27,237 bases of DNA from a virus, in the IMG/VR virus record IMGVR_UViG_3300025889_000778, positions 1-27,237 of that record; one strand, written 5' to 3'. The notes below the pieces were generated by a model. That model had not been told where the DNA came from, did no database searches, and saw nothing but the letters and a program-made list of their open reading frames with translations. Shown here piece by piece: positions 1-26,000 of the stretch (the first letter of the stretch is position 1; each line of letters opens with the position of its first letter). The translations under genes were made by a program, and so were the position numbers.

Positions 1-189
1 ACGTCTTATGATGTAGGGCCTGATGAGGTTGCTACGTTTAACAGCTTCAATGAATGGATTGCTTACTACAACAATTGGGTTCTGTCGCAATGGAACGCTA
101 AGCAAGTGGAGGACGATCTTAGTGACGAGGATGCGGCTACGGTAGATAACTTCGTAGATGTTACTCTTGACGATGAGATTCCTTTCTGA
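1..189 (+). CDS. C-terminal end of a probable ssDNA-binding protein (partial)
   Basis: The window opens inside a reading frame of 62 codons that ends with TGA. The visible part is acidic and its last residues are DDEIPF. An acidic tail ending in D-D-x-I-P-F is the classic tip by which bacterial and phage SSB proteins recruit replication and repair partners, so the likely role is binding single-stranded DNA during replication. The OB-fold that would prove this lies outside the window. The stop codon overlaps the start of the Cas4-like nuclease by one base (TGATG), which fits co-translation with a recombination/replication partner. It could be another protein that carries an SSB-like tip. Confidence 0.6.
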   Translation, partial: TSYDVGPDEVATFNSFNEWIAYYNNWVLSQWNAKQVEDDLSDEDAATVDNFVDVTLDDEIPF

Positions 190-1052
190 TGGGCCCAACT
201 AACCCCTCTGAAATTTCTCTCCTCGGGTGGCTTGCAAAAGCTACTCAGGGGGCAGCAGCAATGTCAACCGAGAACAAGGAGTACATTAAGGACGAAGTTG
301 TTAAGGCGCTTGATCGCCAGTTCTCTGGTAAACCTCGTGATGCTTTCCGCCTCCGTATGTCCAACATTGGAAAAACTTTCTGCCAATTGTGGTACGAGAA
401 GAATAAGCCCGAAGCAGCCGCTGCCCGTTCAAACCATTTCATTATGCGTATGTTGTTGGGCGACATCTATGAAGCGGTGTTTAAGGGCGTGCTAAAAGAG
501 ATCGGCATTAAGTTCTCTGACAATGAAAAGGTTGAACTTGTACTTGACGACGGCACCGTAATCAACGGGGAGTTAGACCTTGCCATTGGTGATACGGTTG
601 ACGACGTTAAGACTGCATCAAACTGGTCGTACACAAATAAGTTTGGTAGCGTCGATGATTTGATTAAGGAGGACCCTTTTGGTTACATTGGGCAGCTAGT
701 AGGATACGCCAAAGCGAAAGGAGTAAAGGTAGGCGGCTGGTGGGTGTCTAACACTGCTACGGGTGAAGTTAAGTACGTGCCCGCTGAAGGCATTGACGTT
801 GACGCTGTTATGAAGCAGCTTAACGACACCAATGCTAAACTTAAGGCTAACGTCTTTGAGCGTTGCTTTGAGCCTGTGGAAGAGGTGTTTCGTAAAGTTC
901 CTACTGGCAACTTGATGTTGGGAACTACGTGTGGCTTCTGCGATTTCAAGGAGGATTGTTGGAAGGGTAAATTGCAGACGCTGCCTTCTATTCCGTCTAG
1001 AGCCAAAGCACCTAAGATGGTTGATTACGTGCACATTGAGAAGGAGGCGTAA
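189..1052 (+). CDS. Cas4/RecB-like PD-(D/E)XK exonuclease with Fe-S cluster cysteines
   Basis: This 287-aa protein shows the RecB/Cas4 nuclease layout. A first cysteine is at C65, followed by a GDIYEA segment (E95) in the position of motif I. The metal-binding core GELD (D130) and DDVK (D139, K141) comes next, then Q169 with Y173 as the QxxxY motif, and a C-terminal cysteine group C248, C251 and C257. One N-terminal plus three C-terminal cysteines is the 4Fe-4S arrangement of Cas4 and AddB. The family cuts single-stranded DNA from an end; in phages it is usually linked to recombination or host DNA degradation. It sits between an SSB-like gene and an endonuclease I gene, which supports a DNA-processing role. 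No cas1/cas2 or CRISPR array is visible, so an adaptation role is not suggested. The start overlaps the previous stop; an internal ATG at codon 25 is a possible alternative. Confidence 0.85.
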   Translation: MGPTNPSEISLLGWLAKATQGAAAMSTENKEYIKDEVVKALDRQFSGKPRDAFRLRMSNIGKTFCQLWYEKNKPEAAAARSNHFIMRMLLGDIYEAVFKGVLKEIGIKFSDNEKVELVLDDGTVINGELDLAIGDTVDDVKTASNWSYTNKFGSVDDLIKEDPFGYIGQLVGYAKAKGVKVGGWWVSNTATGEVKYVPAEGIDVDAVMKQLNDTNAKLKANVFERCFEPVEEVFRKVPTGNLMLGTTCGFCDFKEDCWKGKLQTLPSIPSRAKAPKMVDYVHIEKEA

Positions 1053-1053
1053 C

Positions 1054-1281
1054 GTGGCACCTTACATGGAAGACATGCTAGACGTTGAGGATATGGAGTA
1101 CTCTACACTTGTAGCTACAATGGACGATCTTGAAAGGCGTCTGCATAATACACTGCGAGAGTGTGCGAGACGGGATAACACTACCATCTCGCTAACTCTT
1201 ATTGGGCACCCTGACGACACAGTTGAGCTGTCAAGGTTGCGTCAGATTACGAGGCACAAGATGTCTACGAACCACGAGTAA
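1054..1281 (+). CDS. Small hypothetical protein, GTG start
   Basis: I do not recognise this 75-aa protein. The GTG at 1054 is chosen because AAGGAGG (1041-1047) lies six bases upstream; the next ATG in frame is at 1066. The N-terminal third is acidic (EDMLDVEDMEYS), the middle is a basic, probably helical stretch (LERRLHNTLRECARR), and the end is basic. It follows the Cas4-like gene after a single base and is followed five bases later by endonuclease I, so it is probably made together with those nucleases. There is no signal peptide or membrane segment. A small helical partner or regulator is possible but is a guess. Confidence 0.7.
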   Translation: MAPYMEDMLDVEDMEYSTLVATMDDLERRLHNTLRECARRDNTTISLTLIGHPDDTVELSRLRQITRHKMSTNHE

Positions 1282-1285
1282 GAGT

Positions 1286-1807
1286 ATGCCAAGACGTAAC
1301 GCTAATGCGCGTACTCCCCGAGCTAAAAGAAAGCCGCCTAAAAAGCTCACTACTCGTCAGGTAGCCTTACGTAAAGGGTATTCGTCAGGCTTTGAGTTTA
1401 CAGAAGCCACAAGGCTTAAAGCATTAGGCGTTACGGATTCTCGCTACGAAGCAGTCACAATTACGTGGCTAGATATGCAAGTAAGAACGTATCGGCCCGA
1501 CTTTGTTTTGCCTAACAACATTATAGTTGAGACTAAAGGACGCTTTACTGCCATTGATAGACGTAAGCACAAGCGTATTAAAGAGCAACATCCAGAACTT
1601 GACATTCGTTTCGTGTTTTCTAACAGTAATTCAAAACTTTACAAAGGAGCTAAATCGTCGTATGGTGACTGGTGTGACAAGAATGGGTTCCCTTTTGCAA
1701 ATGAGACCATACCGGAGGAATGGTTAGCCGAGCCAGATAAACCTACCGTGCCTAAACTCATCCCACTAAGTGAAAAAGAGGAAAAACTCGTTAATGAAAA
1801 CGACTGA
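1286..1807 (+). CDS. Endonuclease I, T7 gp3-type Holliday-junction resolvase
   Basis: This 173-aa protein matches T7 endonuclease I closely in its core. SGFEFTEA carries the first catalytic Glu (E37), YRPDFVLPN carries D72, and IVETKGR carries E82 and K84, the same E/D/E-x-K set used by T7 gp3 (E20, D55, E65, K67). KEQHPELDIRFVFSNS and KLYKGAKSSYG follow, as in T7. The family dimerises and resolves branched DNA, both freeing replication intermediates before packaging and degrading host DNA. A basic N-terminal tail of about 30 residues precedes the domain. ATG 1286 is preferred because upstream starts in this frame lie inside the previous gene; its ribosome-binding site is weak, so coupling to the upstream gene is likely. 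The last 14 bases overlap the next gene. Confidence 0.92.
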   Translation: MPRRNANARTPRAKRKPPKKLTTRQVALRKGYSSGFEFTEATRLKALGVTDSRYEAVTITWLDMQVRTYRPDFVLPNNIIVETKGRFTAIDRRKHKRIKEQHPELDIRFVFSNSNSKLYKGAKSSYGDWCDKNGFPFANETIPEEWLAEPDKPTVPKLIPLSEKEEKLVNEND

Positions 1808-2210
1808 TAAAAAAGGCTCCGTTACCGATGAACTTAAAGCGGAGGATGGCAGCATCTTCTTGCGTATCAAGCCAACTATGGAGAATGGCGTATGGGACAC
1901 AGGAATTGATATTTCCTTGATTATTCCAGATGGAGGGCCTCTTAGTGAAAGCGACCAGAACGTACTGCTTAACATAGCTTTTTGCATCTGCGCCTCCGTT
2001 CCTTTGTACGAGCAGAATGACGGAGTGCTTGATATGGCTAAGGCTATTCTAGCTGACGCACGCGCTAACAATAAAGGAGAGTATTTGTTTGAGGACGTTG
2101 TAGGAGGGGGTGTTGAGAATGCACAACAGGCGGAAGGGTTTCCTAATAGAGTTGTGAAGCGTGAAGGGAATGTTGTGCAGGTATTGTTTAACCGGACGGA
2201 GGGCAAGTAG
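1794..2210 (+). CDS. Hypothetical protein
   Basis: This 138-aa protein is not recognised. ATG 1794 is preferred over a GTG at 1770 because AAGAGGA (1776-1782) lies 11 bases upstream of it and almost nothing precedes the GTG. It begins inside the end of endonuclease I. A mixed alpha/beta N-terminal half (SIFLRIKPTMENGVWDTG, then ISLIIPDGG) leads to a helical segment with cysteines (LLNIAFCICASVPLY), an acidic helix and a glycine stretch (DVVGGGVEN). It has no signal peptide and no clear catalytic motif. Its place between endonuclease I and a DUF3310-like gene suggests a nucleic-acid or nucleotide metabolism accessory, which is inference from position only. Confidence 0.75.
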   Translation: MKTTDKKGSVTDELKAEDGSIFLRIKPTMENGVWDTGIDISLIIPDGGPLSESDQNVLLNIAFCICASVPLYEQNDGVLDMAKAILADARANNKGEYLFEDVVGGGVENAQQAEGFPNRVVKREGNVVQVLFNRTEGK

Positions 2211-2621
2211 GTGAGTAAATACAAAACTCCGGAGATCGTGGAAGACCCCTTTGCCGAGGGCGGCGTTATTCCTACTTACATGTACGGCGGGGAGTTTGGC
2301 GGGGCAATGGTGGAGAACATGTTCCCTTCTTGGGAAGGAAACTTTTGTAGTACTCTTGGGGGTCTTCCTGATAAGCCACACGACCGCCCCAAGACTGCAT
2401 CGGATGGAGGCAGCACTGACTATTACTTCCTGCCAGAACATGCTAAAGAATTGCGCCATCTTATCTCCCATAAAGGCATGTCTAAGGCTCGCGGTGACGT
2501 GTTTAAGGCGTGTTATAGATTGGGTGAGAAGGAAGGAGTTGATACTCTGTACGACTTGAACAAGATGAAGTTTTTCGTGGAAGACTTGATTGAAATGTAT
2601 CACAGAGGAGAGAGGTTGTGA
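2211..2621 (+). CDS. DUF3310-like protein
   Basis: The 136-aa product starts at GTG 2211, directly after the previous TAG. Its C-terminal half resembles the DUF3310 phage family: Y-Y-x-L-P, a helix ELRHLISHKGMS, then RGDVFKACYRLGEKEG and a final helix DLNKMKFFVEDLIEMY. Such domains are common in phage early regions and are sometimes fused to nucleotide kinases; their function is unknown. The N-terminal 65 residues (rich in Gly, Pro and acidic residues) are unlike that domain and not recognised. The gene ends in GTGA, which overlaps the next start. The family assignment is from memory of the pattern, not a search. Confidence 0.7.
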   Translation: MSKYKTPEIVEDPFAEGGVIPTYMYGGEFGGAMVENMFPSWEGNFCSTLGGLPDKPHDRPKTASDGGSTDYYFLPEHAKELRHLISHKGMSKARGDVFKACYRLGEKEGVDTLYDLNKMKFFVEDLIEMYHRGERL

Positions 2622-2797
2622 CGATAGCGTTTCATGAATTGTGGGAAACGTATAATACGTACCTTATGGCTGGCTTCAATGGCGACTACGGCGCATATGA
2701 CAATTACATAACTGCTCTGCCCGCCTACCAGTTGCTAGACGAACTTGCCCGTTATGAGAAGAATGTGCACCCCTACGTACAAGGAGAGGAGTCATGA
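2618..2797 (+). CDS. Coupled micro-gene 1, hypothetical 59-aa protein
   Basis: A short frame of 59 codons starts at GTG 2618 inside the GTGA overlap with the DUF3310-like gene and ends at TGA 2795-2797, which overlaps the next ATG. A GAGAGG-type ribosome-binding site (around 2608-2615) lies upstream. The product is rich in tyrosine and small residues (ETYNTYLMAGFNGDYGAYDN) and has a helical end (YQLLDELARYEKN). It is not recognised. Its credibility comes from the stop/start overlaps on both sides and the protein-like composition. It is the first of three similar-sized coupled genes. Confidence 0.7.
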   Translation: MTIAFHELWETYNTYLMAGFNGDYGAYDNYITALPAYQLLDELARYEKNVHPYVQGEES

Positions 2798-2970
2798 AAT
2801 ACGATTACAAGGTAGAGGGAGGCTACATTAAAGTCAAACCTGAAGACTACTACGAACTACTGCGAGACGTTAAATTCCTTGATTGCCTATGCGGCATGGG
2901 CGTTGATAATTGGGAAGGCTACGAGGCCGCTGTAGAAGAGTACGAGAGCACAATGCCGGGGGGGTACTAA
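2794..2970 (+). CDS. Coupled micro-gene 2, hypothetical 58-aa acidic protein
   Basis: The frame starts at ATG 2794 in an ATGA overlap with the previous gene, with AAGGAG at 2781-2786 as a good ribosome-binding site, and stops at TAA 2968-2970. The product starts MKYDYKVEGGYIKVKPEDYY, contains CLCGMGVDNWEGY and an acidic helix EAAVEEYES, and ends MPGGY. It is strongly acidic and tyrosine-rich, and the two cysteines are two residues apart. No family is recognised. Small acidic phage early proteins are often host-directed inhibitors or DNA mimics; nothing here proves that. Confidence 0.72.
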   Translation: MKYDYKVEGGYIKVKPEDYYELLRDVKFLDCLCGMGVDNWEGYEAAVEEYESTMPGGY

Positions 2971-3155
2971 TGTACGTAACAAAACCTAAAAGCTTTCAAG
3001 AGTTCGATGTGTATGATTACATAACGCCTAAACTATCCGTTACAGTGTTGGAAGAGGAACGGGAAACACATAAATTCTCTGGACTGTATAACGCCGAAGG
3101 CGTGCCCTTGTATAAGGTACAACAAAAGAACGTAATGGGGTTTAAACTTACTTAA
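2970..3155 (+). CDS. Coupled micro-gene 3, hypothetical 61-aa protein
   Basis: ATG 2970 shares one base with the previous stop (TAATG), so translation is probably coupled. The 61-aa product alternates polar and hydrophobic residues in likely beta strands (KLSVTVLEEERETHKFSGLY, then GVPLYKVQQKNVMGFKLT). It has no cysteine, signal or membrane segment, and I do not recognise it. It is the last gene before the nrdJ promoter; no terminator hairpin is visible after its stop. Confidence 0.72.
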   Translation: MYVTKPKSFQEFDVYDYITPKLSVTVLEEERETHKFSGLYNAEGVPLYKVQQKNVMGFKLT

Positions 3156-3160
3156 TTCCC

Positions 3161-3189
3161 TTGCCTTACTTCACTCAATAGCGTATAAC
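3161..3189 (+). promoter_or_regulatory. Putative sigma70-type promoter before nrdJ
   Basis: TTGCCT (3161-3166) and TATAAC (3184-3189) are separated by exactly 17 bases, matching four of six and five of six consensus positions. The predicted start would be near 3196, about 27 bases before the nrdJ ATG. The site lies in the only real gap of the plus-strand block (3156-3222), which supports it. Confidence 0.6.
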
Positions 3190-3219
3190 CTTCGGCCTTG
3201 CCCCCATTAAGAAAGGTTA
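3186..3219 (+). repeat. Perfect 7-bp inverted repeat across the nrdJ start region
   Basis: TAACCTT (3186-3192) and AAGGTTA (3213-3219) are perfect inverted copies 20 bases apart. The left arm overlaps the predicted -10 box and the right arm covers the probable ribosome-binding site (AAGAAAGG) of nrdJ. It could be an operator or a hairpin that hides the ribosome-binding site in read-through transcripts. Chance occurrence cannot be excluded. Confidence 0.4.
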
Positions 3220-3222
3220 CAC

Positions 3223-5175
3223 ATGTCGTCGGTATTGCCCACGGACTACCAGAACTTTATTGCTTTGTCACGCTACGCTCGCTGGCTTGAAAATGAGAAT
3301 AGGCGTGAAAGTTGGGACGAGTCCGTTGGGCGATACGTCTCCTTCATCGTTAAGACGCTTAAGGCCAAACACAATTACACTGTTAAGCCTACACTAGTTA
3401 AGCGCATCACGGATCACATCACCGAACTTAAAACTATGGGCTCGATGAGGGCTCTCATGACTGCCGGCCCTGCGTTGGAGCGTTGTAGCGTTGCAGGATA
3501 TAACTGCGCGTACATGCCAGTCGACAGCCTTCGTGCCTTCGACGAGACTATGTACATTTTGATGTGTGGTACTGGCGTAGGCTTTTCAGTTGAACGCCAA
3601 TTTGTGGAGAAACTACCAATTGTTAATGAATCTTTTGAGCCTACTAGCACTACTATTGTCGTAGACGACAGCAAGATGGGCTGGGCTAAAGCTTTACGAG
3701 AACTCGTGGCCAGCCTGTTCATTGGTGTTGTTCCCTCTGTAGACTACAGCCTGTTGCGTCCTGCTGGGGCGCGCCTTAAGACGTTTGGCGGTAGGGCGTC
3801 TGGTCCTGAGCCTTTGGAAGAGTTGTTTAACTTCGTAGTGTCTGTTATTAAGAAAGCTGCCGGCCGTCGCCTTACCGCTCTTGAGTGTCACGACTTGATG
3901 TGTAAGATTGGCGAGGTTGTGGTTGTGGGCGGAGTACGTCGCTCCGCACTCATTAGCTTGTCCAACCTTGACGACGATCAAATGCGTCATGCTAAGACGG
4001 GCGAATGGTGGACTACCACTGCCCATAGGGCCTTAGCTAACAACTCTACAGCATACGACAGTAAGCCGGATATGGGAGCCTTCATGCGTGAATGGCTCGC
4101 TTTGTATGAGAGCAAGAGCGGCGAGCGTGGCATTGTTAATCGCCAAGCTATGAAAGCACAAGTATCTAAGAATGGTCGACGCTCTCTTGAACAGCACGGT
4201 AAGCCTATTCAGTTTGGCGTTAACCCGTGCGGGGAAATCATTCTACGCCCCAATCAGTTTTGTAACCTTTCAGAGATTATCGTGCGTTCTGACGACACTG
4301 CTGAACAACTTGAAGATAAGGTTGAAGTAGCTACTATTTTAGGAACCTTTCAGTCGTGCCTTACTGACTTTAAGTATCTTCGCAAGGTGTGGAAAACCAA
4401 TACTGAGGAAGAGCGCTTGTTGGGCGTCAGCCTTACTGGCATTATGGATCACCCTATTCTGAATGGTTCTAAAACTACAGGGCTTGAACTGCAAGGACTT
4501 CTTACACGCCTTAGAGAGGTAGCTGTTAAAACCAATGCCACATACGCTAAAGACATTGGCATTCCTGTGTCCGCTGCCATTACCTGCATTAAGCCGAGCG
4601 GAACCGTTAGCCAGCTAGTCGATTCAGCTAGTGGCATTCACTCTCGGCATAGCCCATACTACATTCGAACGGTTAGAGGGGACGCCAAAGACCCTATCAC
4701 GAAGTTCATGCAATCGGTAGGCATTCCCAATGAGCCCGACTTCACTAAGCCAGACAGCACCGTAGTGTTCTCCTTTCCTATGAAATCTCCGGAGGGTGCT
4801 ATTTGCCGTAATGATAAAACGGCCATTGAGCAACTTGCTATGTGGCTCACGTATAAGCGCTATTGGTGTGAGCATAACCCGTCCATTACCGTCTCAGTTA
4901 AGGAAGACGAGTGGGCTAAAGTAGGAGCGTTTGTCTATGAGCATTTTGACGAACTTTCAGGCGTATCGTTTCTGCCTTTTAGTGACCATACTTACGTACA
5001 AGCTCCATATCAAGATTGCACTAAAGAGGAGTATGAACAACTTCTTAAACAGATGCCCGCAAGCATTGACTGGGCTACTCTTTCCGAGTATGAAAAGGAG
5101 GATGGAACAACAGGCTCTCAAGAACTGGCATGCACAGGCGGAGTCTGTGAGGTCGTCGACATCGGTAGTCGCTAA
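3223..5175 (+). CDS. nrdJ: Class II (adenosylcobalamin-dependent) ribonucleoside-triphosphate reductase, monomeric type
   Basis: This 650-aa enzyme converts ribonucleotides to deoxyribonucleotides for phage DNA synthesis, using coenzyme B12 to make the thiyl radical. The key residues of the Lactobacillus leichmannii-type reductase are visible: C95 in YNCAY, the loop NPCGEIILRPNQFCNLSEI with C336, E338 and C347 (the same 11-residue spacing as C408/C419), and a C-terminal redox pair C637/C642 in ACTGGVCE. FGGRASGPEPLEELF and IKPSGTVSQLVDSASGIHSR are also typical. At 650 residues it is somewhat shorter than the roughly 740-aa Lactobacillus enzyme, with no extra N-terminal regulatory cone evident. 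ATG 3223 has AAGAAAGG upstream and follows its own promoter. Its presence implies that the host can obtain cobalamin. The next gene starts 30 bases on. Confidence 0.95.
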   Translation: MSSVLPTDYQNFIALSRYARWLENENRRESWDESVGRYVSFIVKTLKAKHNYTVKPTLVKRITDHITELKTMGSMRALMTAGPALERCSVAGYNCAYMPVDSLRAFDETMYILMCGTGVGFSVERQFVEKLPIVNESFEPTSTTIVVDDSKMGWAKALRELVASLFIGVVPSVDYSLLRPAGARLKTFGGRASGPEPLEELFNFVVSVIKKAAGRRLTALECHDLMCKIGEVVVVGGVRRSALISLSNLDDDQMRHAKTGEWWTTTAHRALANNSTAYDSKPDMGAFMREWLALYESKSGERGIVNRQAMKAQVSKNGRRSLEQHGKPIQFGVNPCGEIILRPNQFCNLSEIIVRSDDTAEQLEDKVEVATILGTFQSCLTDFKYLRKVWKTNTEEERLLGVSLTGIMDHPILNGSKTTGLELQGLLTRLREVAVKTNATYAKDIGIPVSAAITCIKPSGTVSQLVDSASGIHSRHSPYYIRTVRGDAKDPITKFMQSVGIPNEPDFTKPDSTVVFSFPMKSPEGAICRNDKTAIEQLAMWLTYKRYWCEHNPSITVSVKEDEWAKVGAFVYEHFDELSGVSFLPFSDHTYVQAPYQDCTKEEYEQLLKQMPASIDWATLSEYEKEDGTTGSQELACTGGVCEVVDIGSR

Positions 5176-5205
5176 GGTTAACGGAACAACTAAGAGGGTA
5201 GAGTG

Positions 5206-5505
5206 ATGCTTAGGCGCGACTTAGTTGAGTGGCTGACGCCAGAACAGCGCGTAGCCGCCTCACAAATAGCTACCTACAATCTGCATAGCATCTTTAAGAA
5301 GAACGATTGGGCGTGGTTTAACCGTCTGCTTTGCTTGTACTACTGCACTGCGGATGTTGAGGTGCCAGCTAAATGGCTTCCTGTCATACTGCGTGACCTC
5401 AATCGAGTGGCTGCTACATTTGGGGCATCCGTCCCCTCCATCGAAGAGCAAGTGCAAGCACAACAAGGCCGTAGAATGTCTAAACAAGGGAAAACAACAC
5501 AATGA
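5206..5505 (+). CDS. Hypothetical protein between nrdJ and mazG
   Basis: This 99-aa protein starts at ATG 5206, with AAGAGGG (5193-5198 region) upstream; a GTG three bases earlier is an alternative. It looks all-helical and soluble, with an aromatic, cysteine-containing centre (DWAWFNRLLCLYYCTADVEV) and a polar, basic glutamine-rich tail (EEQVQAQQGRRMSKQGK). It is not recognised. Its TGA overlaps the mazG start in ATGA, so the two are probably translated together downstream of nrdJ. A role in nucleotide metabolism is suggested by position only. Confidence 0.75.
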   Translation: MLRRDLVEWLTPEQRVAASQIATYNLHSIFKKNDWAWFNRLLCLYYCTADVEVPAKWLPVILRDLNRVAATFGASVPSIEEQVQAQQGRRMSKQGKTTQ

Positions 5506-5867
5506 TTTCGACCGACGCAAATGTTGAATCGTCTCTATTCCAGTTTGAACGTGCATGTCTATCCCTTCTCCAAGAGAAGTATGCTAGATGGGAAGGAGAC
5601 ATTTCCGTTAGACTTATAGAAGAGGAGAGTAAGGAGCTAGTACATGCGTTGAAGAATGAAAACCATGACGCAATCCTTAAGGAAATATGCGACCTCGTGT
5701 ACGTAGCTGTGGGCACTGCTGTTGCCAGAGGGTACAACTTTAGTGAGGCCTTTAAGCGAGTGCATAATTCTAATATGTCAAAGCTGGATAATTGCACGGT
5801 TAGAGAGGATGGTAAAATTCTCAAGGGGGCCAATTACACGCCTCCTGATTTGAAGGACTGTGTGTAA
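5502..5867 (+). CDS. mazG: MazG-like nucleotide pyrophosphohydrolase
   Basis: This 121-aa protein is a single-domain, all-alpha NTP pyrophosphatase of the MazG/PRA-PH type. The metal-binding helices show LIEEESKEL (E41, E45) and EICDLVYVAVG (E61, D64), and the C-terminal signature VHNSNMSKLD followed by REDGKILKGANYTPPDLKD is typical of phage MazG-like proteins. Such enzymes hydrolyse NTPs or dNTPs to NMPs and pyrophosphate; in phages they are thought to clean the pool or adjust host signalling nucleotides. Proximity to nrdJ fits a nucleotide-supply unit. It overlaps its neighbours on both sides (ATGA at the start, TAATG at the end). Confidence 0.9.
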   Translation: MISTDANVESSLFQFERACLSLLQEKYARWEGDISVRLIEEESKELVHALKNENHDAILKEICDLVYVAVGTAVARGYNFSEAFKRVHNSNMSKLDNCTVREDGKILKGANYTPPDLKDCV

Positions 5868-6052
5868 TGCCTAAAGTGGAGATTAGCGTTAACGCTAAAG
5901 ACGCAGTGCAGTTTGGGCTGCGCCCTTTCATTGAACGTCAATACGAAAACATAAAAAGGGCCTGTCCAACTGCTTGCAATTTCTCACATGTTGTGATAGC
6001 AGATAACTGGACTGGTGAACACGACATTGTAATCACGTATGATGAAAGCTGA
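5867..6052 (+). CDS. Small hypothetical protein
   Basis: This 61-aa protein starts in a TAATG overlap with mazG. It begins with a strand (PKVEISVNAKDAVQFGL), has a helix with two cysteines (ERQYENIKRACPTACNF) and ends in strands and acidic residues (HVVIADNWTGEHDIVITYDE). I do not recognise it. The three bases between its stop and the next ATG imply co-translation with the PD-(D/E)XK gene. The C-x-x-x-C pair might bind metal or form a disulphide, but a second pair is lacking. Confidence 0.72.
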   Translation: MPKVEISVNAKDAVQFGLRPFIERQYENIKRACPTACNFSHVVIADNWTGEHDIVITYDES

Positions 6053-6055
6053 GAC

Positions 6056-6532
6056 ATGATTGAGATTGACATCACCGAAGATATGGTGGCTAAAGCATTC
6101 CGTAAAGCAAAGGAGATGGGAGAACTACGGCAGTCTATTACTAGAGGAGACGGCAACCTTGCCGGTTTCATTGGTGAACAAGTAGTGTGGCAAATTCTTG
6201 GAGGTGAATGGGCTAACACGTATGACTATGACATAATCGCTAAAGACGGCAGCACAGTTGACGTAAAGACTAAGCGTACTGGCGTTACACCATTGCCGCA
6301 CTACGATTGCTCAGTGTCAGGCTTGAACGCTAAGCAGAAATGTGATAAGTATGCCTTCGTGCGTATTCTCAATAACAATACTAAAGCGTGGTACTTAGGC
6401 ACTATTGATAAAGACGTGTTCTACGAAAACGCCACCTTCATTAAAAAGGGAGAAGTGGACCCTTCAAACAACTTCAAAGCTAAGAGTGATATGTACAATT
6501 TAACAATTGCCAAACTCAAGGAACTTGCATAA
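6056..6532 (+). CDS. PD-(D/E)XK-type nuclease, 158 aa
   Basis: The 158-aa protein carries a compact restriction-endonuclease-like core: G-F-I-G-E (E41) on a helix, D59 in YDYDIIAKDG, and then VDVKTKR giving D69 and K71. This E...D...DxK order is the signature of the PD-(D/E)XK fold, seen in phage and restriction nucleases of unknown target. The C-terminal half (DKYAFVRILNNN, KAWYLGTIDKDVF) looks like the closing strands of that fold. It is unrelated in sequence to the Cas4-like nuclease and endonuclease I at the other end of the block, so the phage carries three candidate DNA-cutting enzymes here. Possible jobs are host DNA degradation or processing of branched DNA; the substrate cannot be read from sequence. 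Confidence 0.75.
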   Translation: MIEIDITEDMVAKAFRKAKEMGELRQSITRGDGNLAGFIGEQVVWQILGGEWANTYDYDIIAKDGSTVDVKTKRTGVTPLPHYDCSVSGLNAKQKCDKYAFVRILNNNTKAWYLGTIDKDVFYENATFIKKGEVDPSNNFKAKSDMYNLTIAKLKELA

Positions 6533-6735
6533 TGGCACGAAGCGCATTTTACTACGATAAGTACAGCCTTCCTCCGCTGCGTAATCAATTCAAGGCCGGG
6601 TACCTTGCGTATAAAAGCCCCTATCTTAAGAGGCTAAATGGTGCAACTATTATTGTGACTGCTAATCCATATCCAGAGGGCACTATGCAACATAAGGAAT
6701 GGCAACGTGGGTACGACCACGCATACTTTAATTAG
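6532..6735 (+). CDS. Small basic protein resembling ribosome modulation factor-like phage proteins
   Basis: The 67-aa product begins in a TAATG overlap with the nuclease gene. It is basic and aromatic, with two related-looking segments: FKAGYLAYKSPYL and, near the end, NPYPEGTMQHKEWQRGYDHA. The G-Y-x-A and N-P-Y...W-x-x-G-Y-x-x-A pattern is like that in short phage proteins annotated as ribosome modulation factor (Rmf)-like. Rmf binds 70S ribosomes and causes dimerisation in resting cells. The resemblance is short and from memory, so function is uncertain. The last four bases overlap the end of the opposing holin-like gene. Confidence 0.65.
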   Translation: MARSAFYYDKYSLPPLRNQFKAGYLAYKSPYLKRLNGATIIVTANPYPEGTMQHKEWQRGYDHAYFN

Positions 6736-8678: not shown

Positions 8679-9030
8679 GGGGACCTCTAGCTACGCCAAA
8701 GTATTCTTTAATGACACCGGTCATGGCTACAGTATTTGCTGTAGCGACAGTCATGACAATTTGGTCGCCTGCCTCTAGAACCATAAGTATACTATCCATT
8801 ACTGTTAAAGAGTCCTTTCCGGGAACACTTCCCACGTATACGTTATGGTACTCTGTATGACTCGCATGATACTGCTCAATCAGAATAGAATCAGGCCCCA
8901 CTGTGTCGTTAGATAAAATCATAGACACTAGAACTGCTGTATTATTGGCTGGGCATGTGTATACAACTTCCCGACTTGTAGTTGTCGGCTGAAGAAATAT
9001 AGATCGCAGCTTGTAAGTGTCGTCTCTCAT
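8668..9030 (-). CDS. Small virion-associated protein, first gene after a promoter
   Basis: This 120-aa product has the strand-rich, low-charge make-up of a phage structural protein: TTTSREVVYTCPANNTAVLV, then MILSNDTV and repeated hydrophobic strands (DQIVMTVATANTVAMTGVI). A T-C-P-A-N-N-T-A segment near the start followed by strand pairs is often seen in small head or tail proteins. It is not assigned to a family. ATG 9030 has AAAGGG just upstream and follows the putative promoter at 9063-9090 with a leader of about 26 bases. It overlaps the HNH-like gene by 11 bases. Confidence 0.6.
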   Translation of the reverse strand: MRDDTYKLRSIFLQPTTTSREVVYTCPANNTAVLVSMILSNDTVGPDSILIEQYHASHTEYHNVYVGSVPGKDSLTVMDSILMVLEAGDQIVMTVATANTVAMTGVIKEYFGVARGPLGT

Positions 9031-9062
9031 TTGGCCCTTTAGAATTGAGTACTACTGGCTTG

Positions 9063-9090
9063 GTTGTACATAAATACGCTCTAATGTCAA
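9063..9090 (-). promoter_or_regulatory. Putative sigma70-type promoter for the distal spike/lysis genes
   Basis: On the minus strand a perfect -35 TTGACA (9085-9090) is followed after 16 bases by TACAAC (9063-9068), four of six matches to TATAAT. It fills the 63-base gap between the 1302-aa gene and the 120-aa gene, with a predicted start near 9056. The same TTGACATT block begins the promoter before the capsid gene. Confidence 0.55.
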
Positions 9091-9093
9091 GAA

Positions 9094-13002: not shown

Positions 13003-14551
13003 TTGCACCTTGCATTTTTTGAAGGGCTAGATCGAAGGCATTCAGAAATTCCCCCGACTTATTCATGAACCGAGCAGTAAGTTCAAAAGTGATACGGGCC
13101 TTTTCAATTGCAGATTTAGCTGCTGCGGCTTGTGCTTCGGGCGTCTTGTCTGCTCTGGCTTTTTCAGCTTCGACGGTTTTACTGATGTTTCGTTGAAGCC
13201 TGCTTACCAACGCATCACCTTCAAGGCCCTTTAGGTAGTATGTGTTTTCAAAGGCAACGTCATACACTTTGCGCTCCTCAGGAGGCATACCTAAGAGAAC
13301 CGTAGAATTTTTATGAAGGACTTTACGGTTCTTTGGATCGTACACAGCGGAGGACCTATACAGAGCCATTTGGTGTTGCTCAGCGATGGCCATTCTGTAC
13401 TTAGGTACGTACACTTGAGTGATTAAGGCTTCTATAGGGTAGTCGCCATACTGGGTGCTTTTTGGGTCCAGCCCCATAATCCGCAAAATTGCCTCCTGCC
13501 TATCTCCCATTTGCTTAAGTTTTGTGCCTATTTTAAGGTCTGAGATCATAGTAGTGCCTGTTCTAGCTTGAAACCACCCAAGCGGGTCAGTCAGTGCCTT
13601 TTCCATATTGACTTTGTCTGCTGAGTCCTTAATAGATGTAGTCATGTAGTCGTAGTATCTTTTCGGTGCCTCTTGGGCCAGTTCTGGAGAAGACAGAATA
13701 AAGTTCTGTTGTATAGTAGTGTATGCGACTTCGGCCTCTTGCTTTTGTTCTGGAGGTACAGTAGGGTCGTTTAAAGTATCAAAATATACGCCTGCTGCCT
13801 TCTGAACCTCTCTGCTCGCGGCACTGAGTTTTCTGTCTTCTTGTTCTTGTATAAACTTAGCTCGGTCTCTAGTGTTTTTTTCTATTTGTATGGCATGCGT
13901 TTCTGCGTCACGCCTGCGTTTAATCTCAACATCTTTTCTGGCGGCTACAACATCCGGAGTAAGTTCACCGGGCTCAAATCTAATACTTTCGCCGATGTCT
14001 GCGCTAGTCTGCTCAGGAGCCGCCTCTACTGGGGTCTCTTCCTCCCCGGATGAAAACAAACTACCAATTGAGGACACAATACTATCTGCAATCGTAGGCT
14101 TCTTCTCAACAGGAGACGGCAAGGGGGCAACATCACGAGCCAAGATATCTGCTAGAGCGCCGGGGTCCCATGCCTGCGTAGGCCTATTGGGGTCTGACGG
14201 AGCAGAACTAAAATACTTCTGCTTCAAGGGCTGTAACAGAGGACTACCAGAGTCATACATTTTCCTTATAGAAGACACTGTCCCTTCAATCTCATCTACA
14301 GACTTGCCTTTAATCATTCTAGCTGCGTCTTGGTTAGAAATGTCTAACATAGACGACAACGACTTAATATGAGAAGTCATGGCCGTTCTAGTTTTCTTAT
14401 ACGTCTCAAGTTCAGCTTGGCGAGTCTCAAATTCAGACTGCCACTCGTGCTTCTTTTTATAACTTGCGAGGTCTCGACGCGACTCCTCTGCCGCATCGTA
14501 CTCCTTGTTGAAGCCCTGCGAAAAACTATCGAAGAAAGAGTTTTTAGCCAT
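12992..14551 (-). CDS. Probable internal virion protein, helical, 519 aa
   Basis: The 519-aa product starts MAKNSFFDSFSQGFNKEYDA and is almost entirely helical and charged, with long predicted coiled coil from about residue 200 (DVEIKRRRDAETHAIQIEKN) and near the C-terminus. A proline/serine/glutamate-rich linker lies around residues 140-190. Neither enzyme motif nor membrane segment is evident. Size and position, just before the 1302-aa protein, fit the T7 gp15 place in the ejection apparatus, which is inference from order. AGGA lies nine bases before the ATG, and the start overlaps the previous stop by eight bases. Confidence 0.65.
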   Translation of the reverse strand: MAKNSFFDSFSQGFNKEYDAAEESRRDLASYKKKHEWQSEFETRQAELETYKKTRTAMTSHIKSLSSMLDISNQDAARMIKGKSVDEIEGTVSSIRKMYDSGSPLLQPLKQKYFSSAPSDPNRPTQAWDPGALADILARDVAPLPSPVEKKPTIADSIVSSIGSLFSSGEEETPVEAAPEQTSADIGESIRFEPGELTPDVVAARKDVEIKRRRDAETHAIQIEKNTRDRAKFIQEQEDRKLSAASREVQKAAGVYFDTLNDPTVPPEQKQEAEVAYTTIQQNFILSSPELAQEAPKRYYDYMTTSIKDSADKVNMEKALTDPLGWFQARTGTTMISDLKIGTKLKQMGDRQEAILRIMGLDPKSTQYGDYPIEALITQVYVPKYRMAIAEQHQMALYRSSAVYDPKNRKVLHKNSTVLLGMPPEERKVYDVAFENTYYLKGLEGDALVSRLQRNISKTVEAEKARADKTPEAQAAAAKSAIEKARITFELTARFMNKSGEFLNAFDLALQKMQGANAQ

Positions 14552-18950: not shown

Positions 18951-21347
18951 TTAGCCGCAATGGAGGGTACACGGCACTGTGTATGAGCCATCATCATAGG
19001 TTTCAATGGCAGTGGTGCTAGTCACTTTGGCAATCGTACTTGCCTTAAACAAATCAGCGCTATCTCCTGTCTGTGGTCTAGCAGTCCCGTCACCAGCCGA
19101 CTCAAGAAGATCACCGTTCGCAACAGTTACGCCTGAACCGACACGGATAGCACCAAGACCAAGAGACTCGATGCTGCTGTCACCATCTTTGTAGTGACCG
19201 GCAAACACGCCATAGACGGATTTATCACCAGCAGTGTCACTTACTTTTACTTTTGCTAGACGTTTGTGCGTACTTTGAGCAATAGCAGTTCCTTCCGCCT
19301 GTGCGCCGTCTTCATCAATGTAAATTGTGTGGGTGCTTCCGATTTCGAACGAACCAGCAATATCTGTTTTCTGTGTTTGACCGTCACCATCAACATATTC
19401 GAACTGTGTGTAATTACACATTTCATTGATCGTGGACATTACTGTGCCGAGTGGAATTTCTGGCTGGCTGTGGTCTGTAAACTGCGACCAGTGCGCCCCG
19501 GTAAAAGTATTATACCTGATAGTGCTGTTATCAACTGTATCAATGTCCCCGATTGACGAGGCTTGATACCTAAAAACAATGTAGTTATGAGTTCCAGCAG
19601 CAGATGAACTATCGGTCATAATTATTGCAAGAGTATTGTCGGTGCTGTGCGCAATTTGACCGGTTGATCCAAACAAGAAGCCGTTTTCACCGCTACTACC
19701 ACTAGCATTCACATTCAATACTTCAAGTGGACCGGCTGGTGCCGTGTTGCCAATACCAACATTGCCGCTGCTGTTGATGCGCATACGTTCAGAGTTAGTC
19801 GCTCCTGTTCCTGAGCTAAAAATAAGGCCACCGGCATTTGTCCCCGTAGTCGAACCTCCGAAGGTGATTGAGCCGCCGTTGTTAAATGTATTGCCACCCG
19901 CAATGCTATAGGTCGAGGACGTGGCATCGCTGAACATATCTCCGCCATCAACAAGGGCAATGTTGCCGCTTACTGTTAGAGGCTGACTTGGAGAACTTGT
20001 ACCAATGCCGACATTCCCGCTGCTGTCGATACGCATACGTTCAGTTGCATTAGTCGTAAACGACATAAAATCACTAGCATGACTGTATCGGATTATTCCA
20101 ATGTTTGTGTCGTCAAGATCACCAAAGTAAATGTAATTATTTCGACTATTGTCAGCGCATAGATTTTCGAAAACAGTATCTGCGCCGCCACCCGTGTCTG
20201 AAGCTTTGAGACGAATCCACGCATCTCCAGAGGCTTCATCCACTTCAAAGAGGCGGTCAGGTGTCGCAGTACCCACGCCGACGTTATCGGCGCTGCTGAT
20301 GGTCAAGGCTGTGCTTGTAGCATTGTCATCAATGCCGGTCGAAGTAAACGTCGTAAACGTACCCGCAGCCGCGCTAGAACCGCCAATCACCGTGCCGTCG
20401 ATGGTGCCGCCGTTGATGTCGGCGGTGGTAACAGCCCCAAGGTTGGTGATAGTTTGACCTGCAAAGGTGCTCGTGCCAGCAGCAGTAATACCGCCGTCCT
20501 TGACAAGAAGGGAGTCAATTGTCACGCCTGACGCGGCGGTCGTTTCATTGATGGTGTTCGTGGTGATTACGTCGCCAGACGACACCACAATGTCTGTCCC
20601 GCCGGTCGTATTACCGTTGGCAAGAATTTCCGCAAGAGTGTCGACCGTATCAACCTGACTATCAACATAGGCCTTAATCGACTGCTGGGTCGCCAATGCG
20701 GTCGCGCTATCTGAAGCCATGTTGTCTTCGTCAAGAATAGTGCTGACAACCGTAACCCCCGTACCTTTTAGCTCGCCAAACGTAACGCGCCCACTAGCGG
20801 TGACCGTGGTAAAGCCACCCGCCGCCGTGCTGGCACCGCCGATGGTAACCCCATCCATAGTGCCGCCGTTGATATCTGCTGTGGTAGCAGATAAGGTAGT
20901 AAAAGCCCCAGCAGCAGGGGCAGCGCCGCCAATGGCAGCCCCATCAATAGTGCCTCCATTAATGTCTGCTGTCGTAACAGTACCCAAATCAGCAATCGTG
21001 GCTCCCGAAAAGGTGCCAGTGGCTGTAACAGTCAGAGCATCTACAGACGCGGCGTCAATATTGGCGGTACCGTCGATGTACAAATCTTTAAATTCTTTAG
21101 ACGCACTGCCCAAATCTAGCGTATTATCAGTCTTTGGCGTTAGAGCAGAGGCGCTGATTACAAGGTCTTGTACAGGCCCAACAACAGTAATCGGGGCCCC
21201 TTCATCAGCAGTTCCATCATGGGTATGCCCCGTGGTCTCATCGAAGGCAGCCTCGATGGCATCGTATTCGCCATCTAGGTCACTAGCGTTAATAATATTA
21301 CCCGTAGCAATATTATTACTTGTGTCATTGCGAGTGTAGCCGGTCAC
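18951..21347 (-). CDS. Repeat-rich tail fibre protein
   Basis: The 798-aa protein is a typical aquatic-phage tail fibre. The N-terminus has NNIATGNIINASDLDGEYDA and TTGHTHDGT, as in fibre heads that join the tail. Three copies of a 26-28 residue unit (TTADINGGTIDG..IGG...AAG.FTT) occur at residues 125-152, 156-182 and 308-333, and ERMRIDSSGNVGIG-type units at about 436-449 and 520-533, consistent with a triple beta-stranded shaft. The last 100 residues (LGAIRVGSGVTVANGDLLES, then IAKVTS) resemble a G2-type chaperone/autoprotease end domain; that is tentative. The start is GTG 21347, with AGGAG seven bases upstream. It follows the nozzle gene, as a fibre attached to that part of the tail would. 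Confidence 0.85.
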   Translation of the reverse strand: MTGYTRNDTSNNIATGNIINASDLDGEYDAIEAAFDETTGHTHDGTADEGAPITVVGPVQDLVISASALTPKTDNTLDLGSASKEFKDLYIDGTANIDAASVDALTVTATGTFSGATIADLGTVTTADINGGTIDGAAIGGAAPAAGAFTTLSATTADINGGTMDGVTIGGASTAAGGFTTVTASGRVTFGELKGTGVTVVSTILDEDNMASDSATALATQQSIKAYVDSQVDTVDTLAEILANGNTTGGTDIVVSSGDVITTNTINETTAASGVTIDSLLVKDGGITAAGTSTFAGQTITNLGAVTTADINGGTIDGTVIGGSSAAAGTFTTFTSTGIDDNATSTALTISSADNVGVGTATPDRLFEVDEASGDAWIRLKASDTGGGADTVFENLCADNSRNNYIYFGDLDDTNIGIIRYSHASDFMSFTTNATERMRIDSSGNVGIGTSSPSQPLTVSGNIALVDGGDMFSDATSSTYSIAGGNTFNNGGSITFGGSTTGTNAGGLIFSSGTGATNSERMRINSSGNVGIGNTAPAGPLEVLNVNASGSSGENGFLFGSTGQIAHSTDNTLAIIMTDSSSAAGTHNYIVFRYQASSIGDIDTVDNSTIRYNTFTGAHWSQFTDHSQPEIPLGTVMSTINEMCNYTQFEYVDGDGQTQKTDIAGSFEIGSTHTIYIDEDGAQAEGTAIAQSTHKRLAKVKVSDTAGDKSVYGVFAGHYKDGDSSIESLGLGAIRVGSGVTVANGDLLESAGDGTARPQTGDSADLFKASTIAKVTSTTAIETYDDGSYTVPCTLHCG
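20349..20975 (-). repeat. Three-copy coding repeat in the fibre gene
   Basis: Three units encoding T-T-A-D-I-N-G-G-T-[IM]-D-G...IGG...AAG.FTT lie at 20892-20975, 20802-20882 and 20349-20426. The first two are adjacent and the third is separated by about 125 codons. Shaft repeats like these can recombine and change fibre length. Confidence 0.8.
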
Positions 21348-25972: not shown

Positions 25973-26000
25973 GGTATACTCACAATTTTAAGAATGTCAA
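25973..26000 (-). promoter_or_regulatory. Putative sigma70-type promoter before the capsid gene
   Basis: On the minus strand TTGACA (25995-26000) is followed after 16 bases by TATACC (25973-25978). The -35 box is perfect and the -10 matches four of six. The predicted start is near 25965, leaving a leader of about 210 bases before the capsid ATG. It shares TTGACATT and spacing with the promoter at 9063-9090. Confidence 0.6.

Follow-up and report, generated by a model that had tools for sequence, protein, structure and literature searches.

A probable separate promoter for nrdJ in an HMO-2011-type marine podophage

In a stretch of DNA from an HMO-2011-type marine podophage, the class II ribonucleotide reductase gene (nrdJ) is preceded by a 67-nt intergenic gap that probably holds an ordinary promoter giving nrdJ its own transcript. 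The stretch (hereafter the window) comprises 27,237 nt, positions 1 to 27,237 of IMG/VR record IMGVR_UViG_3300025889_000778, and the gap (3156..3222, plus strand) extends from the stop codon of a 61-aa open reading frame (ORF) to the nrdJ ATG at 3223. An earlier note had pointed to the sequence TTGCCT-17-TATAAC and a perfect TAACCTT/AAGGTTA inverted repeat in this gap, and had proposed that the repeat controls both transcription and translation of nrdJ. Read directly, the letters are as it described. The promoter is backed by a phage-trained matrix and by promoter-like sites in two other lineages with a gap before nrdJ; the repeat most likely arose by chance, from the letters that the -10 and Shine-Dalgarno elements happen to have.

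The assignment to the HMO-2011 group is based on similarity and gene order. In its capsid protein the phage shares 70.8% identity with Roseobacter phage CRP-345 and 69.4% with Puniceispirillum phage HMO-2011, nrdJ is 65.4% identical to its HMO-2011 counterpart, and the order of genes by position is that of both phages: polymerase (seen in contig L001), a gene of unknown function, exonuclease, endonuclease I, small genes, nrdJ and MazG, followed by a structural block on the opposite strand. A candidate identification of the gene after the polymerase as a single-strand binding protein was dropped (weak PHROGs match, function unknown). Sister contigs of the same phage are nearly identical to the window, with 1 difference in 4722 bases for L001 (99.98%), 3 in 4770 for L162 and 1 in 11,626 for L082, which covers the structural side. 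The gap sequence is identical in the window, L001 and L162, three records of one phage, and two later scans for closer relatives covering the gap gave only L001 and L162. Among the matches listed, no nrdJ record falls between these sister contigs and approximately 68–69% identity. The DNA polymerase frame of L001 is interrupted close to the end of the contig by an in-frame stop (L001:25-27), which is either an edge error or the sign of a shorter gene.

The nrdJ gene (3223..5175, plus strand) encodes a 650-aa product that matches phrog_367 (E 1.8e-181), PDB 1l1l (E 1.1e-49) and PDB 1xje, similarities that mark it as an adenosylcobalamin (B12)-dependent, class II ribonucleotide reductase; the Pfam domain RNR-II_ins_dom scores 26.7, slightly below its cut-off of 27. 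A Shine-Dalgarno sequence AAAGG (3212..3216, plus strand) lies 6 nt 5' of the ATG. The 61-aa ORF that adjoins the gap on its 5' side (2970..3155, plus strand) matches nothing in Pfam or PHROGs at E 0.001, and the viral-contig scan found it elsewhere in two contigs only, both of the same phage. No tRNA was found in the window. The gap had been called the only real one in the plus-strand block (1-6735), which holds within the window, where our own ORF calls give 30 nt (5176-5205) as the second-largest gap, but fails upstream of it: contig L001 has a 45-nt gap after the polymerase gene, bearing a promoter, 0.7–0.8 kb 5' of the window's first base. The broader statement that the phage otherwise packs its genes without gaps is too strong, given this 45-nt gap and the gaps of 38, 63, 91, 251 and 88 nt that the same ORF calls leave in the minus-strand block.

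The putative promoter consists of a -35 element TTGCCT (3161..3166, plus strand), which has 4 of 6 consensus letters and is weak compared with the TTGACA of the group, a 17-nt spacer (3167-3183, plus strand) and a -10 element TATAAC (3184..3189, plus strand), the letters of which are conserved in the promoters of the group. The two hexamers hold 9 of 12 consensus letters at a spacing of the RpoD type (sigma-70). No TG stands in front of the -10 element, and an automated promoter scan omits the site since it requires T at position 6. Host RNA polymerase with a housekeeping (RpoD-type) sigma factor would bind this sequence, and transcription would start near 3196 on the plus strand, about 7 nt past the -10 element as judged from the spacing, giving a leader of approximately 27 nt that carries its own Shine-Dalgarno for nrdJ. 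Because this leader would begin at its own promoter and bring its own Shine-Dalgarno, nrdJ, probably together with the genes as far as 6735, would be transcribed apart from read-through of the presumably stronger post-polymerase promoter. We infer the use of host polymerase by HMO-2011-type phages from the promoter letters; Cobavirus-like roseophages are described as having no RNA polymerase of their own in PMC6918029. RpoD promoters of Caulobacter are given as TTGaCgS / GCTANAWC in PMC8144410, and TATAAC fits the last six letters of that -10 motif. As in these alphaproteobacterial promoters, the nrdJ site has two hexamers at ordinary spacing and a -10 element that ends in C and not T (TANAWC), but its -35 element reads TTGCCT and the GC directly before the -10 element is absent.

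Two promoters of this general type are conserved in the HMO-2011 group. At the polymerase junction, a sigma-70-like site is present in each of the 68 loci in which the polymerase C-terminus could be recognised (2 of them from this phage), and on a generic matrix none of these sites scores below the nrdJ site. In the commonest arrangement, the -35 element TTGACA lies within the codons for ...WLDTKDV near the end of the polymerase, and the TG of an extended -10 element comes from the polymerase stop codon TGA, with TATAAC directly after it. Among the 64 distinct junctions, 63 use CTT for the Leu codon in the -35 element, compared with 17.8% in the upstream polymerase (up to 200 codons), and 63 use GAC for the Asp codon, compared with 29.9% over the same upstream region; hence, DNA letters are kept here and not the protein alone. 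The polymerase stop is TGA in 47 of 64 junctions, 42 of which continue with TATAAC, and nrdJ stops in the same locus set are TGA in 44 of 147. From the -10 element to the next gene start, the distance is 34–43 nt in 47 of the 54 loci measured. In the phage studied here, the junction promoter (L001:1742-1770, with the -35 element from 1742 and the -10 element from 1765) reads TTGACA-17-TACTAT and follows a TAA stop.

The second conserved promoter stands before the capsid gene, where a perfect TTGACA-16/17-TATAAC was found in 75 of 77 loci tested (80 were fetched and three dropped for too little upstream DNA). In the 18 perfect-site loci listed, the site lies 204–238 nt upstream of the gene. The window has a site of the same class, TTGACA-16-TATACC (25973..26000, minus strand), 5' of the gene for the major capsid protein. 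Of the two loci that lack the perfect form, L082, a contig of this phage, carries TATACC at -223, and L154 shows no site of similar quality. Among random stretches used as a control, 46 of 385 reach 10.5 and 21 of 385 reach 18, counts that may include the conserved promoters themselves. The nrdJ site resembles both conserved promoters in its TATAAC -10 element and a spacer of 16–17 nt, and the polymerase-junction promoter also in the distance from the -10 element to the gene start. It differs in that those two occur group-wide with TTGACA, whereas the nrdJ site was found in this phage only.

Scored with a matrix built from 57 polymerase-junction sites, with the window's own phage left out, the nrdJ site reaches 13.66, the best value in the plus block 1-6735 (runner-up 9.12) and the fifth among the 54,408 strand positions of the window. 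The five top positions are, on the minus strand, 9068, 25978 (which marks the capsid promoter), 21587 and 25914, followed by 3184 on the plus strand. By our own ORF calls all except 21587 are in sense orientation and intergenic, a class accounting for 1.27% of positions. Random 56-nt stretches of three relatives reach 13.66 in 6 of 2100 cases. The score places the site in the HMO-2011-group class, yet below the perfect capsid sites (at least 21.4). On the generic matrix, which is E. coli-like, the nrdJ site does not stand out: counting the site itself, 73 of the 54,412 strand positions score as well, and 32 of 148 nrdJ loci without a gap have an equally good site upstream of the gene.

To place the gap among relatives, we measured how far the nrdJ start lies from the closest ORF stop before it in 152 loci, which comprise 80 from a first scan (taken from at least 600 matches, L162 not among them), L162, ten isolate phages and 61 of 80 from a second set, the remaining 19 being contigs already included. 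The upstream ORF overlaps nrdJ or ends at most 13 nt away in 148 of the 152. The HMO-2011-type and Cobavirus phages share the class II reductase gene and the order endonuclease, small genes, nrdJ with the window; whereas here 67 nt and a promoter-like site intervene, the gene before nrdJ abuts or overlaps it in the relatives examined. Translational coupling is open to nrdJ in nearly all relatives because of this abutting or overlapping gene, and a promoter of its own may serve to replace it. The nrdJ promoter is not conserved group-wide: none of the 148 packed loci reaches 13.66 with the phage matrix between -70 and -14. The site would thus be a lineage-specific member of the TTGACA-16/17-TATAAC type and not one of the conserved two, because both the gap and the score are missing from these 148 loci.

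The four loci with a gap are L001 and L162, which are the same phage, and two others, L018 and L409. The gap measures 66 nt in L018 and, in L409, 67 nt to the match start or 64 nt to an ATG just before it. Both hold promoter-like sites, TTGTAA-17-TGATACAAT in L018 and TTGTAT-17-TGATATGAT in L409, and the distance from the start of the -10 element to the ATG is 39 nt in this phage, 41 nt in L018 and 37 nt in L409. With the phage matrix these sites score only 3.2 and 0.2, and they therefore support a promoter at this place, not the same kind of promoter. On a FastTree tree of 152 nrdJ proteins (the window and 151 loci, one locus being too short), L018 and L409 sit on other branches and the gap requires three changes, so three lineages most likely gained it separately, with gain and loss as the alternative. 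The gaps of the window, L018 and L409 were compared by eye and no homology among them is claimed. The small genes to the left of nrdJ vary between relatives, and to its right HMO-2011 (L241:7942-8303, 362 nt) and CRP-345 (L242:7921-8290, 370 nt) have gaps without annotated genes.

The left arm of the inverted repeat, TAACCTT (3186..3192, plus strand), overlaps the -10 element and the right arm, AAGGTTA (3213..3219, plus strand), overlaps the Shine-Dalgarno. The match is perfect over 7 bp and extends to 9 of 10 (3183-3192 / 3213-3222). When the gap is shuffled with dinucleotides preserved, a perfect repeat of at least 7 bp arises in 87 of 2000 sequences and a 9/10 repeat in 4 of 300. Of 406 tiles of 67 nt cut from the window, 26 contain a perfect repeat of at least 7 bp. 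With the letters of the hexamers and the Shine-Dalgarno held fixed, any 7-bp repeat is seen in 1383 of 20,000 shuffles, and one linking the Shine-Dalgarno to the -10 element in 80 of 20,000. A 7-bp repeat on the Shine-Dalgarno with its partner at most 60 nt away occurs at none of 185 annotated starts in HMO-2011, CRP-345 and CRP-1 and at none of 53 post-polymerase starts. The 185 were drawn from the first 50 kb of the three records, excluding starts at base 1, end-cut genes and one plus-strand gene inside the HMO-2011 minus block. Among the window's 32 gene starts, such a repeat is present at nrdJ and at 13008, there with its partner 80 nt upstream; one of the 32 was entered as 1795 (the ATG is at 1794) and another, 27222, has almost no upstream sequence, neither of which affects nrdJ. 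The repeat is thus unusual at a level of approximately 0.4 to 7%, depending on how the question is framed, and was chosen post hoc. It is absent from the gaps of L018 and L409. In viral contigs, the same repeat stands before an ATG in at least 119 stretches, many of them expected by chance given that a variable gap was allowed. TAACCTT or AAGGTTA occurs four times in the window (3186, 3213, 4263 and 5174) compared with 4.06 expected. All four copies cluster at 3186-5180, before, in or at the end of nrdJ.

Predicted pairing of the arms depends strongly on where the RNA begins. It is up to 0.97 for an RNA from 3120, up to 0.95 from 3156, up to 0.66 from 3186 and approximately 0.47 from 2970, and falls to 0.01 from 3040 or 3080, where 3189-3196 pairs with 3093-3100 instead in the minimum free energy structure. 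In the RNA from 3196 the Shine-Dalgarno is also paired (unpaired probability 0.01–0.23 at 3213-3216), and it is most open (0.07–0.53) in the longest read-through RNA folded, 2970-3300. Hence, a Shine-Dalgarno hidden in read-through RNA and free in promoter-started RNA is not predicted; it is predicted to be paired in both. Folding energies do not differ from those of shuffles (z 0.04 to 0.74).

These results bear directly on the possibility of a switch, in which the promoter is shut off by a repeat-bound protein, the arms hide the ribosome-binding site in read-through RNA, or both. Such a switch, which we consider improbable, could coexist with the promoter itself, and the companion idea that only promoter-started RNA is translated is equally doubtful. 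The repeat is real and rare (0/185 and 0/53 starts, 80/20,000 constrained shuffles), its arms are predicted to pair at up to 0.97 and 0.95 from 3120 and 3156, and all four TAACCTT copies are in or beside nrdJ. However, the folding does not support the claim for read-through RNA: depending on the 5' end, predicted pairing of the arms ranges between 0.97 and 0.01, the RNA from 3196 is predicted to be paired at the Shine-Dalgarno too, the longest RNA behaves in the opposite way and the energies are like those of shuffles. Other observations also speak against the switch: the repeat is missing from both other gapped lineages, TAACCTT is no more frequent than chance and the start at 13008 has a 7-bp Shine-Dalgarno repeat as well. 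The arms are 27 bp apart centre to centre, approximately 2.6 helical turns, and would therefore face roughly opposite sides of the DNA, a spacing that does not suit a helical arrangement. A two-level version, in which a phage or host TAACCTT-binding protein covers the -10 element and the Shine-Dalgarno while part of the read-through RNA hides the start, seems quite unlikely; were it true, the phage would time dNTP synthesis apart from the rest of the replication block.

A neutral spacer is a less remote alternative, although still an unlikely one. The gap would then be left over from loss of a small gene or from recombination at the nrdJ boundary, the promoter match would be due to chance and nrdJ would be expressed by read-through only. 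Consistent with this, 148 of 152 loci have neither the gap nor a gap promoter, the -35 element is weak, the generic matrix finds nothing remarkable and the small genes left of nrdJ vary. Against it, the one sizeable gap of the plus block, which takes up 67 of 6735 positions, is where the block's best phage-type site lies, the same matrix recovers the capsid promoter, on which it was untrained, and both other gapped lineages have promoter-like sites. Cobalamin riboswitches and the repressor NrdR both regulate nrd genes in bacteria, and either could in principle control a B12-dependent reductase. At the sensitivity of the scans used, that reading is hardly credible here, given that no Rfam family reaches threshold in the window, a relaxed scan of 2900-3500 gives a single snoRNA match (E 4.7) and the sole match to the NrdR box has 3 mismatches and lies at 19315, compared with 3.26 matches expected by chance. 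An ordinary promoter for nrdJ thus remains the reading we favour.

The literature searched contains no account of the polymerase-junction and capsid promoters of HMO-2011-type phages. By a word search, 'promoter' is absent from the main texts of three genome papers on the group, PMC9038755, PMC8528129 and PMC6918029, and, judged by title and the beginning of the abstract, no record retrieved for HMO-2011 and promoter concerns the promoters of these phages. Searches on TATAAC and on overlapping stop codons found nothing, and among the matches listed for phage nrdJ promoters none is on topic by title. PMC12753301 deals with two pelagiphages, of which one carries nrdAB and the other lacks a reductase.

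If the preferred reading of an ordinary promoter holds, a single lineage within an abundant group of marine phages may have split the gene for nucleotide supply from its replication operon, and two further lineages may have made a similar change. The interest lies in this repeated separation of nrdJ, the mechanism being ordinary. A by-product may be worth more, namely the conserved promoter with its -35 element in the last polymerase codons and an extended -10 element that often uses the stop codon. Together, the polymerase and capsid promoters provide a matrix for annotating transcription units in the group. The top scorer of the window, the promoter-like site TTGACA-16-TACAAC (9063..9090, minus strand), lies in the 63-nt gap 9031-9093, with its -10 element 38 nt from the start of the minus-strand gene at 9030. 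The capsid promoter lies in the 251-nt gap, which may hold a long leader, and a second promoter-like site, TGGACA-17-TAAAAC (25914, minus strand), follows 64 nt further downstream, within the leader of the capsid gene.
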